Below are positions 3,700 to 28,594 of a stretch of DNA of 64,000 nt, one piece after another. Numbering within the stretch: position 1 is the first letter of the stretch; every line of letters begins with the position of its first letter. Where the stretch lies: assembly GCA_902601545.1 (NCBI GenBank), contig CACKNR010000005.1, positions 1 to 64,000 on the forward strand, read 5' to 3'. The notes below the pieces were generated by a model that saw only the letters and a list, made by a program, of their open reading frames with translations, made no database searches and had not been told where the DNA came from. This DNA is from an uncultured Pelagibacteraceae bacterium. GTDB taxonomy: Bacteria; Pseudomonadota; Alphaproteobacteria; Pelagibacterales; Pelagibacteraceae. Position numbers and translations under genes: made by a program.

Positions 3700-3965
3700 A
3701 TTAGGGGCGTTCTGTTGCCAGGTGCCCCAAACCCCGTAACTTAATTAACTAAGTTAATTAAGCTGCAAGTGCAAATTTTTGATTTGCATTTATAAATTAG
3801 CCCGTTACGTCGGAACTATCTCGGACGAAAGAACAGCCTTTAGACACCCGTCGATCCTGATTCACCCCCTAAAAGTTTTTTGGTGGAGGTGGTGGGTACT
3901 GCCCCCACGTCCGTGATGTTTATTACGAAATTCGTTTATCGTCGTAGTTGGAAAACCAACGATTT
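3700..3965 (-). ncRNA. ssrA: tmRNA, circularly permuted (two-piece, alphaproteobacterial type)
   Basis: Minus strand: acceptor piece ending ...GUGGGGGCAGUACCCACCACCUCCACCA, spacer, then coding-piece 5' end GGGGGUGAAUCAGGAUCGACGGGUGUCUAAAGG; GGGGGUG pairs with CACCUCC as a 7-bp acceptor stem. Tag frame GCA AAT CAA AAA TTT GCA CTT GCA GCT TAA (ANQKFALAA*). Confidence 0.92.
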
Positions 3966-3971
3966 ATTATA
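3966..3971 (-). promoter_or_regulatory. -10 box (TATAAT) for the tmRNA gene
   Basis: TATAAT on the minus strand just upstream of the acceptor-piece hairpin (CGTTGGTTTTCCAACG). Confidence 0.5.
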
Positions 3972-4013
3972 CTATAAAATTAAATAATAGGTATACTGCA
4001 ATTAAGTTATTCG

Positions 4014-26003: not shown

Positions 26004-26405
26004 ATGAAAAAAATTTTAGGTTTTTTGCTAACATTTATACTACTAACTGGTTGTGCAGAATCTTTAGCTCTTTTAGGACCTACGTCTACCGCGGTAACCG
26101 GCGGAAATATTGCTCAGTCAGCTTTTTCTTCAGCAGTAAATTTCGGAGTAAAAAAACAAACTGGAAAAAGCCCAATGGAACATGCATTGGCATACGCAGA
26201 AGAAATGAATCCAGAGAAAAAGAAGGAGCCTTGTTTATCATTTGCTGAAAAAACTAATTCAGAAATTTGCGCTGTTGTGAAAAAACAATTGAACATGACT
26301 AAAACGAAATTATTAAAGAAATCAAAGGAAAAATCTATAAAAGACCTTACTTCATTACTTCAGCCCAACATAAATAAAAAATCTAAAATTAAGTACTTAG
26401 ACTAA
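26004..26405 (+). CDS. small lipoprotein, paralogue A
   Basis: Lipobox LLTGC; AESLALLGP; shares VKKQTGK-P-EHA-AYAEE-NPE-KKE-C with downstream ORF. Confidence 0.75.
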   Translation: MKKILGFLLTFILLTGCAESLALLGPTSTAVTGGNIAQSAFSSAVNFGVKKQTGKSPMEHALAYAEEMNPEKKKEPCLSFAEKTNSEICAVVKKQLNMTKTKLLKKSKEKSIKDLTSLLQPNINKKSKIKYLD

Positions 26406-26472: not shown

Positions 26473-26541
26473 TAATTCGTTAACAATTAACTTTCAATTA
26501 AAGACGAAGCAGATATGAACCGATTAAAACAAATTTCAAAA

Positions 26542-26949
26542 ATGAAAAAAATTTTAATTTTATTATCAACGATTTTCTTACTTAACGGGTGCGCTGAATC
26601 TCTAGCATTACTCGGTACTGGCACATCTAACGGAAAAATATTACAATCTTCTCTTAATTCAGCAATAAGTTATGGAGTTAAAAAACAAACAGGAAAAACT
26701 CCTTTGGAACACGCTATTGCTTACGCAGAAGAAAAAAATCCAGAAAGAAAAAAAGAAACCTGTATTTCTTCTTTTGAAATAACAAGATCTGAATTTTGCA
26801 CAATTGTAAAAAAACAAATTAAGTCTAATAGTTCTGCTATGATAGAAAAGACCACAGGCTTAGTGAAAGAATTACCAAAAAATAAAATTAAAGAGATATC
26901 TAAGATTGAAAAGATAGCAAAGAAATCAATAATTTATAATAGAAGGTAA
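26542..26949 (+). CDS. small lipoprotein, paralogue B
   Basis: Lipobox LLNGC; CAESLALLGTGTSN; clear paralogue of the preceding lipoprotein; start moved to internal MKKILILL. Confidence 0.75.
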   Translation: MKKILILLSTIFLLNGCAESLALLGTGTSNGKILQSSLNSAISYGVKKQTGKTPLEHAIAYAEEKNPERKKETCISSFEITRSEFCTIVKKQIKSNSSAMIEKTTGLVKELPKNKIKEISKIEKIAKKSIIYNRR

Positions 26950-27004: not shown

Positions 27005-28297
27005 TTAAGCAGCTAAAGCTTGCTTGATATCTGCAACAATATCGTCTGGATGTTCTATACCAATCGACAATCTTACGTAACCTGGTGTAACACCTGCAGC
27101 TAACATTTCTTTCTCAGTTAATTGACTGTGAGTTGTTGTAGCTGGATGAATTGCTAAACTTCTAGCATCACCAATATTTGCTACGTGGTAAAGCATTTTT
27201 AAGTTGTCAATAAACTTAGCTCCTGCTTCTTTTGTTCCAAGATCCATACCTATTAAAGATCCATAACCACCTTGCATATATTTTTTAGCTCTATCTCTAA
27301 TTTCACCTTGATAATTAGTTGGATAGATTACTTTTTTAACTTTTTTGTGACCATCTAAGAAATTCACAACTTTCTCTGCATTACTACAGTGTTGTTTCAT
27401 TCTTAAAGCTACAGTTTCCAAACCTTGAATGATTTGAAAAGCATTGAATGGACTTAACGGAGCACCTAAGTCTCTCAATAAAACCACTCTAGCTCGGATT
27501 ACGAATGGGATATTAGCACCAGTTAATTGTGGAACTGCATCTGCCCAAACTGCACCATGATAACTTTGATCTGGCTCATTTAATAGAGGTTGTCTTTTTC
27601 TATCTTTAATCCAATCAAAATTTCCTCCATCTACAATTATTCCTCCAATTGAAGTACCATGACCACCAATATATTTCGTCAAAGAGTGCATTACAATTGC
27701 AGCTCCATGAGCTAAAGGTTTACATATTACTGGCGAAGCTGTGTTATCGATAATTAAAGGAATACCTTTTTTTCTACCGATATCAGAAACTTCTTTAATT
27801 GGAAAAACACGAAGATAAGGATTTGGAAGAGTCTCACCATAGTAAGCTCTTGTCTTATCATCAGTCACTTTTTCAAAGTTTTTTGGATCTGCAGGATCTG
27901 CAAATCTAACTTCAATACCTTGTTGTCTTAAAGTATTTTTAAATAAGTTAACTGTACCTCCGTATAAATCAGTCGAAGCAACAATGTTATCTCCAGCTTG
28001 TGCTAAGTTTTGAATACACATTGCTGAAGCTGCTTGTCCTGATCCCACTGCACATGCTGCTACACCGCCTTCAAGCGCTGCAACTCTTTTTTCTAGCACA
28101 TCTACAGTCGGGTTCATTATACGTGTGTAAATATTACCAAACTCTTTGAGACCAAATAAATTTGCAGCATGTTCTGCATTTTTAAATTGATAAGAAGTTG
28201 TTTGATAAATCGGAACTGCTACAGCTGTTGTAGTAGGATCAGCTCTATAATCACTACCATGCAAGCCAATAGTTTCCGGATGTTTAAAATCAGCCAT
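27005..28297 (-). CDS. metY: PLP-dependent O-acetylhomoserine/O-acetylserine sulfhydrylase (MetY-like)
   Basis: ETIGLHGSDYRADPTTTAVAVPIYQTTSYQFKNAEHAANLFGLKEFGNIYTRIMNPT; MHSLTKYIGGHG; preceded by SAM riboswitches. Confidence 0.92.
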   Translation of the reverse strand: MADFKHPETIGLHGSDYRADPTTTAVAVPIYQTTSYQFKNAEHAANLFGLKEFGNIYTRIMNPTVDVLEKRVAALEGGVAACAVGSGQAASAMCIQNLAQAGDNIVASTDLYGGTVNLFKNTLRQQGIEVRFADPADPKNFEKVTDDKTRAYYGETLPNPYLRVFPIKEVSDIGRKKGIPLIIDNTASPVICKPLAHGAAIVMHSLTKYIGGHGTSIGGIIVDGGNFDWIKDRKRQPLLNEPDQSYHGAVWADAVPQLTGANIPFVIRARVVLLRDLGAPLSPFNAFQIIQGLETVALRMKQHCSNAEKVVNFLDGHKKVKKVIYPTNYQGEIRDRAKKYMQGGYGSLIGMDLGTKEAGAKFIDNLKMLYHVANIGDARSLAIHPATTTHSQLTEKEMLAAGVTPGYVRLSIGIEHPDDIVADIKQALAA

Positions 28298-28337
28298 TGA
28301 TTTTCCCCCTTATTGTTTCTCTTGTCGTTTCGTTCAT
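28290..28337 (-). CDS. leader mini-ORF B (15 aa), ends inside the metY start
   Basis: ATG AAC GAA ACG ACA AGA GAA ACA ATA AGG GGG AAA ATC AAT GGC TGA; SD-like GGAG 5-6 nt upstream; stop overlaps metY as ATGGCTGA. Confidence 0.45.
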   Translation of the reverse strand: MNETTRETIRGKING

Positions 28338-28387
28338 TTTTTCTCCGTCTTTCTGGAGAAGAATGAACGAGGTTCAATTCTGTTCAT
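28334..28387 (-). CDS. leader mini-ORF A (17 aa), starts next to the SAM-V-like Shine-Dalgarno
   Basis: AAGGAGAAG-ATG AAC AGA ATT GAA CCT CGT TCA TTC TTC TCC AGA AAG ACG GAG AAA AAA TGA; stop overlaps mini-ORF B start (ATGA). Confidence 0.45.
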   Translation of the reverse strand: MNRIEPRSFFSRKTEKK

Positions 28388-28388
28388 C

Positions 28389-28445
28389 TTCTCCTTTTTA
28401 GTACTTCGGCATATGCCAGGTGTACAATATGGTTCAAATACCTGG
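28389..28445 (-). promoter_or_regulatory. SAM-V-like riboswitch aptamer (translational)
   Basis: CCAGGTATTTGAACCATATTGTACACCTGGCATATGCCGAAGTACTAAAAAGGAG: CCAGGT/ACCTGG P1 stem and CUAAAAAGGAG 3' segment carrying the SD, as recalled for SAM-V. Confidence 0.8.
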
Positions 28446-28461
28446 TTTAATTTTAGATTGG

Positions 28462-28494
28462 TTCCAAAAAAAAACCACCGGCTAAAGCGGTGGT
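28462..28494 (-). terminator. intrinsic terminator/attenuator of the metY leader
   Basis: Minus strand: ACCACCG-CTTTAGC-CGGTGGT followed by a run of T; loop complementary to the upstream aptamer GCTAAAGCG. Confidence 0.88.
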
Positions 28495-28507
28495 CTGAAT
28501 GACTTTT

Positions 28508-28560
28508 GCGCTTTAGCTGGATTTATTAAGCGCCCGCAAGTTGCCTTAACTCAGCGCTAA
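28508..28560 (-). promoter_or_regulatory. SAM-II-like riboswitch aptamer
   Basis: TTAGCGCTGAGTTAAGGCAACTTGCGGGCGCTTAATAAATCCAGCTAAAGCGC; AGCGC/GCGCT stem, AATAAAT and AGCTAAA as in the alphaproteobacterial SAM-II consensus. Confidence 0.9.
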
Positions 28561-28565
28561 TGGAT

Positions 28566-28594
28566 TTATAACAACAAACTCAGGATTTTGTCAA
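28566..28594 (-). promoter_or_regulatory. sigma70-type promoter of the metY leader
   Basis: TTGACA-17 nt-TTATAA on the minus strand, immediately upstream of the SAM-II-like aptamer. Confidence 0.8.

Follow-up and report, generated by a model that had tools for sequence, protein, structure and literature searches.

Organisation of the metY leader

The window, the whole 64,000-nucleotide stretch of DNA from an uncultured Pelagibacteraceae bacterium, carries the gene order gshA–gshB–leader–ORF B–metY; the first two genes are presumed to be gshA and gshB from a reading of their protein sequences. The name metY is a putative one, derived from the known pairing of metY with SAM-V and from the close match of the leader and N-terminus to those of other SAR11 metY genes. 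The features of the leader are collected in Table 1. Two neighbouring, similar small lipoprotein-like genes with a GCAESLALLG motif (26004–26405 and 26515–26949, plus strand) lie downstream of metY, and an alphaproteobacterial (permuted) tmRNA is found at 3700–3993 of the minus strand.

Table 1. Regulatory elements, reading frames and regulated gene of the metY leader in the window
Feature	Position	Strand	Remarks
SAM-II-like aptamer, divergent	28567–28493, within 28466–28567	−	RF00521, 17.9 bits
Antiterminator strand GCTAAAGCG	28517–28509	−	Read from sequence
Intrinsic terminator	stem 28494–28488 / 28480–28474	−	Read from sequence; followed by U-tract
SAM-V riboswitch aptamer	28388–28452	−	RF01826, 72.7 bits; 3′ end includes the GGAG of S1 (28394–28391)
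S1 GGAGAAGATGAAC	28394–28382	−	Switching strand common to the aptamer 3′ end and helix S1:S2
S2 CGTTCATTCTTCTCC	28369–28355	−	Anti-Shine-Dalgarno (anti-SD) strand; partner is S1 or S3
S3 GGAGAAAAAATGAACG	28346–28331	−	Shine-Dalgarno (SD) and start of ORF B; covered by S2 in the predicted OFF state
Mini-ORF A, 17 aa	28334–28387	−	Frame variable among relatives
ORF B, 15 aa, MNETTRETIRGKING	28290–28337	−	Conserved; final 8 nt overlap the metY start
GGGGG	28305–28309	−	SD-like sequence of metY itself, within ORF B; sequence
metY (O-acetylhomoserine (thiol)-lyase)	27005–28297	−	Regulated gene; 430-aa ORF

The SAM-V score exceeds the gathering score of the Rfam covariance model (41). SAM binding has been demonstrated for the SAM-V riboswitches of HTCC1062 metY and bhmT (PMC6061858), and the window sequence is assigned to this class by its covariance-model match. 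The coordinates given for S1, S2 and S3 in the earlier note are correct to the base. S1, which doubles as the SD and AUG of mini-ORF A, starts within the SAM-V match (28452–28388), so that the module described there as a third regulatory layer is instead the expression platform of SAM-V itself.

The match of the upstream element to RF00521 lies under the gathering score of 36 bits. Its kinship with SAM-II is suggested by the order of the elements and by the terminator, both as in the published tandem SAM-II/SAM-V bhmT leader of HTCC1062 (PMC2704228, PMC11508383), and it may be a divergent relative working like SAM-II. Unlike the HTCC1062 tandem, the window leader is without bhmT and drives ORF B–metY. 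Of the 65 S1/S2/S3 metY leaders listed, 62 have both the terminator and the antiterminator strand, as do all 19 bhmT_g1 leaders. The antiterminator strand, which forms the 3′ side of the SAM-II-like element, is complementary to a terminator arm (28489–28481), an arrangement with the logic of S1/S2/S3 at the transcriptional level.

Two leader layouts

A search for SAM-V covered 169 genomes from the genus of the window and 397 from its family; further Pelagibacteraceae loci came from a pattern scan of named genomes. Identical leaders were removed before counting, so that the counts refer to distinct leaders; all leader totals are lower bounds.

Two layouts can be distinguished. The direct layout, with a start codon 8–13 nt past the aptamer GGAG, is found in at least 76 distinct metY leaders and also in mmuM leaders. 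The distal layout comprises an anti-SD (S2) and a second SD (S3); among the leaders listed, the distance from GGAG to the start is mostly 64–79 nt for bhmT, 94–111 nt for metY and 60 nt for metE-like genes. S1, S2 and S3 are present in at least 117 distinct leaders, which precede bhmT (at least 50), metY (at least 65) and metE-like genes (at least two). The bhmT version is spread across Pelagibacteraceae; metY with S1/S2/S3 occurs in the clade of the window, most other metY leaders being direct. In the window, the aptamer GGAG lies 97 nt from the metY ATG, beyond the distance of about 13 nt at which the GGAG could serve as the SD of the gene. Both layouts occur in HTCC1062, direct before metY (ATG 1005891) and distal before bhmT (ATG 1127292). 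The bhmT leader of this strain (L050) contains S1/S2/S3, and its ATG is flush with the published intergenic region 1127293–1127553; the HTCC1062 starts agree with the intergenic boundaries in that paper (PMC2704228).

In two leaders (L054 and L266), no bhmT or metY could be recognised after SAM-V and the S1:S2 hairpin; these are apparently orphan leaders. The S1–S2 loops of bhmT leaders (for example, L017, L215 and L234) have a recurrent pyrimidine-rich CCCTC/CCTC motif; it may be a further anti-SD or offer the hairpin a different partner (AAGAGG in HTCC1062).

Competing helices and their covariation

In the window, S1:S2 folds into the previously described 13-bp helix with one bulged nucleotide, slightly extended into the loop (−16.9 kcal/mol), and the small internal loop ascribed to S2:S3 appears as a 1×2 loop between two helices (−18.3 kcal/mol). 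Both helices are predicted to form and, as had been claimed, they are mutually exclusive. When S1 and S3 were fixed and the middle was shuffled with dinucleotides preserved, both duplex energies were matched in 0 of 20,000 shuffles; the frequency of a match with a single helix was 0.0002 for S1 and 0 for S3. The whole stretch exceeds its shuffles in stability by a moderate margin (z about −2.1 to −2.2), which is to be expected where a single strand is contested by two helices. With S1 free, the predicted ensemble contains 46% S1:S2 and 53% S2:S3. A predicted pairing of the S1–S2 loop with the metY start was rejected, since the loop bases differ among relatives.

Covariation in SAR11 homologues, named in the earlier note as a check on both helices, is clear for S1:S2 and weaker for S2:S3. 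In a swap test on 11 divergent leaders, all S1 strands were combined with all S2 strands; own partners were far better than foreign ones (−19.0 vs −12.7 kcal/mol, p = 0.00005), and the difference persisted in the distal half of the helix with the SD core left out (−8.8 vs −4.7, p = 0.00005). All 11 leaders fold individually as S1:S2 hairpins, including the unrelated stems of L238, L176 and L017; examples of stems occupying the same place are GGAGATGTTGAACAA/TTGTTCAACTTTCTCC in L238 and GGAGAAAAGAGCTTAA/TTAAGCTCTTTTTCTCC in L176. The swap test for S2:S3 in the same 11 leaders gave p = 0.06. The S2:S3 core, GGAGA with TCTCC, is near-universal and its pairs are mostly invariant SD; two-sided changes are few and fall mainly at positions 6 and 7, which amounts to modest covariation. 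Counts anchored on the 9-bp core are weakly above shuffles (46 of 5000 shuffles reached the observed value for S1:S2 and 328 of 5000 for S2:S3), because the SD core hardly varies and the signal sits in the distal stem. Within metY leaders, S1, S2 and S3 are nearly invariant, the chief variation of S3 being G–U wobble. RNAalifold returned no structure from a MAFFT alignment of 43 bhmT-type leaders, in which variable stems were misaligned; the anchored swap test and per-sequence folds were used instead.

Predicted response to SAM

SAM binding was mimicked by blocking the two first Gs of S1, which belong to P2a of the SAM-bound aptamer in the structural model; the pseudoknot and SAM enter as a constraint only. 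The comparison of folds with and without a SAM-V constraint, proposed in the earlier note, turned out as the switch predicts: in the window, the probability of S2:S3 rises from 0.53 to 0.98 and that of an unpaired SD-B falls from 0.26 to 0.01. SD accessibility falls on blocking in 112 of 117 leaders, namely 64/65 metY, 18/19 bhmT_g1, 28/31 other-genera bhmT and 2/2 metE-like. For bhmT_g1 leaders, S2:S3 is predicted to prevail even with S1 free (median P 0.91). From thermodynamics alone, weak activation would be expected in these leaders, and folding during transcription or the action of ribosomes may be required.

In the calorimetry of Huang and Lilley (PMC6061858), aptamers shortened by 2–3 nt at the 3′ end no longer bound SAM. 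Formation of S1:S2 should, therefore, be incompatible with SAM binding, and S1 is probably unable to serve the aptamer and S1:S2 at once. In Ca. P. ubique, metY and bhmT increase under sulfur limitation (PMC5069961), which is consistent with an OFF switch. The leader has, in sequence and in prediction, the two marks of an alternative-pairing (anti-anti-SD) platform, a strand shared with the aptamer and an exclusive anti-SD helix. In cells, SAM would set the balance between S1:S2 and S2:S3.

ORF B and the proposed mechanism

ORF B is open, with a stop overlapping the metY start by 8 nt, in all 65 metY leaders listed. It also precedes metY where a bhmT or metE-like gene lies upstream, with an overlap of 8 or 1 nt in 14 of 14 distinct operons. 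In the 65 metY leaders, the distance from ATG-B to ATG-metY is only 40 or 37 nt; the distance from S1 to ATG-B varies in single-base steps (54, 55, 56, 57, 58 or 71 nt). Translational coupling of ORF B and metY presumably occurs. Variation among the codon positions of ORF B has no clear coding-type pattern, and ORF B is possibly a coupling device alone. The peptide (28337–28290; also in L182 and L198) is rich in Lys, Arg, Glu and Thr and has almost no internal Met or Cys. The idea that ORF B is a stub of the bhmT N-terminus was rejected, as ORF B sits between intact bhmT and metY in relatives.

The reading preferred here, with a probability of about 0.78, is that S1/S2/S3 is an alternative-pairing (anti-anti-SD) platform of SAM-V, otherwise placed before bhmT, which drives ORF B and the coupled metY. 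The sequence, its conservation, the mutual exclusivity, the S1:S2 coevolution and the ORF B/metY overlap were computed directly. At low SAM, S1, the SAM-V tail with the GGAG, would be free to pair with S2, leaving S3 open; ribosomes would initiate at ORF B, reach its UGA, which overlaps the AUG of metY, and restart there on metY. With SAM in place, aptamer helix P2a would hold the first Gs of S1, and S2 would pair with S3, covering the SD and AUG of ORF B and switching off ORF B and the coupled metY. The bhmT gene, which lies between S3 and ORF B in relatives, is absent in the window clade, where the bhmT-type switch would drive ORF B–metY.

Mini-ORF A and alternative explanations

The earlier note saw an attenuation-like switch triggered by a ribosome on mini-ORF A. 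Control of SD-B by the exclusive S1:S2 and S2:S3 pairings is supported, and its sign fits repression by SAM; the ribosome trigger is not supported. According to the corresponding relay model, S1 is the SD of ORF A, a ribosome crosses S2 in the absence of SAM and opens SD-B, and termination–reinitiation is chained from A to B to metY. A start codon (ATG, in one case GTG) does follow the GGAG of S1 in all 65 metY and all 19 bhmT_g1 leaders listed, ORF A passes S2 in 60 of 65 metY leaders, and it ends at the next start (ATG-B in metY) in 43/65 metY, 18/19 bhmT_g1 and 2/2 metE-like leaders. However, ORF A stops before S2 in 5/65 metY leaders and has other frames or stops in those that neither end there nor at ATG-B, the GGAG–AUG spacing in metY leaders is just 3 nt, and no start codon is present 4–13 nt past the GGAG in 26 of 31 other-genera bhmT leaders with S1/S2/S3. 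Since ATGA contains a stop codon, some of the overlap between ORF A and the start that follows would be expected anyway. The ATG can also be explained by pairing with CAT in S2: both are present in 82 leaders, neither in 25 and one alone in 10. The AUG of ORF A, tracking this CAT, can be read as part of the imitation of S3 by S1. The two strands are alike (SD, spacer, AUGAAC), since S2 has to pair with either of them, and this likeness alone can explain the start codon. The variable frame and length of ORF A among relatives also argue against peptide-leader attenuation. The relay is unlikely; translation of ORF A may nevertheless occur as an addition in this genus.

A broader version is also unlikely. 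In it, SAM-V has two platforms on one aptamer, and S1 in part of SAR11 is a decoy ribosome-binding site (SD and AUG) read by both aptamer and ribosomes; through ribosome loading on mini-ORF A, the state of translation would be passed to the SAM switch ahead of the coupled ORF B–metY relay, so that one leader would combine transcriptional, translational and ribosome inputs.

Direct occlusion alone, in which SAM hides S1 as the operative SD and S2/S3 are incidental, follows the published structural model (PMC6061858) and holds for the direct metY and mmuM leaders. It is very improbable for the distal layout, given the distances of S1 from the metY and bhmT starts, the lack of a start codon near S1 in most other-genera bhmT leaders and the S1:S2 coevolution. 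The view that S1:S2 is an mRNA stability or processing structure and S2:S3 a by-product of the likeness between two SDs draws on S1:S2 being the better supported helix, but is hardly credible for a hairpin without a following U-tract, with two energy-balanced helices in the window and an S2 that in nearly all leaders ends in an anti-SD with a second SD next.

Relation to known systems

The metY platform of SAM-V (RF01826), modelled as direct occlusion in the structural paper (PMC6061858), shares with the window leader the aptamer, the expected ligand class and the translational OFF sign. In the published platform, the aptamer GGAG is the SD of the gene, whereas in the window it belongs to the switching strand, 48 nt upstream of the controlled SD. 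The in vitro studies of the tandem SAM-II/SAM-V leader that were examined likewise treat the aptamer GGAG as the SD. The closest mechanism is that of the M. tuberculosis ppe2 B12 riboswitch (PMC11260477), an OFF switch with a purine strand overlapping the aptamer, an anti-RBS strand and a uORF with overlapping stop and start. It differs in aptamer, ligand and phylum, and coupling was established there by reporters and is inferred for the window leader. Transcription attenuation of the trp type also employs three segments, of which the central one pairs either way; in contrast, S1–S3 have no terminator and no conserved leader peptide at S1, and the sensor is an aptamer.

The principle of a translational OFF switch with anti-SD and anti-anti-SD strands and uORF coupling is, thus, known. 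The distal S2/S3 platform appears to be new for SAM-V: no description was found in the literature examined, which did not include the discovery paper of Poiata et al. 2009 (RNA), and the novelty is provisional, as the bhmT platform may have been described there. If the preferred reading is true, the accepted direct-SD-occlusion model fails for bhmT, with its start 64–79 nt from the aptamer GGAG, and one SAM-V aptamer carries two kinds of platform. An exact test is also offered for the unexplained tandem SAM-II/SAM-V leader.

History of the bhmT cassette

Pelagibacteraceae, which rank with the most numerous cells of the ocean, rely on organic sulfur in reduced form. In same-genus relatives, the gene order is gshA–gshB–leader–bhmT–ORF B–metY. 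A bhmT match was found in just 19 of the 169 genus genomes, and none in the window genome (assembly 71.6% complete). In the metY tree, all distal-layout loci fall into one group (SH-aLRT 94), with direct metY outside it; within this group, the presence of bhmT switches at least 7–9 times. A single bhmT deletion was rejected on these grounds. Exchange of the bhmT cassette by recombination, in either direction, is likelier than one deletion. If the switch works as proposed, methionine-synthesis genes (bhmT, metE-like or none, ahead of metY) have been swapped behind one switch among close relatives. In L198, L152, L153 and L253, the bhmT position, after the SAM-V platform and ahead of ORF B–metY, is taken by a metE-like gene with a PVGSLPR N-terminus.
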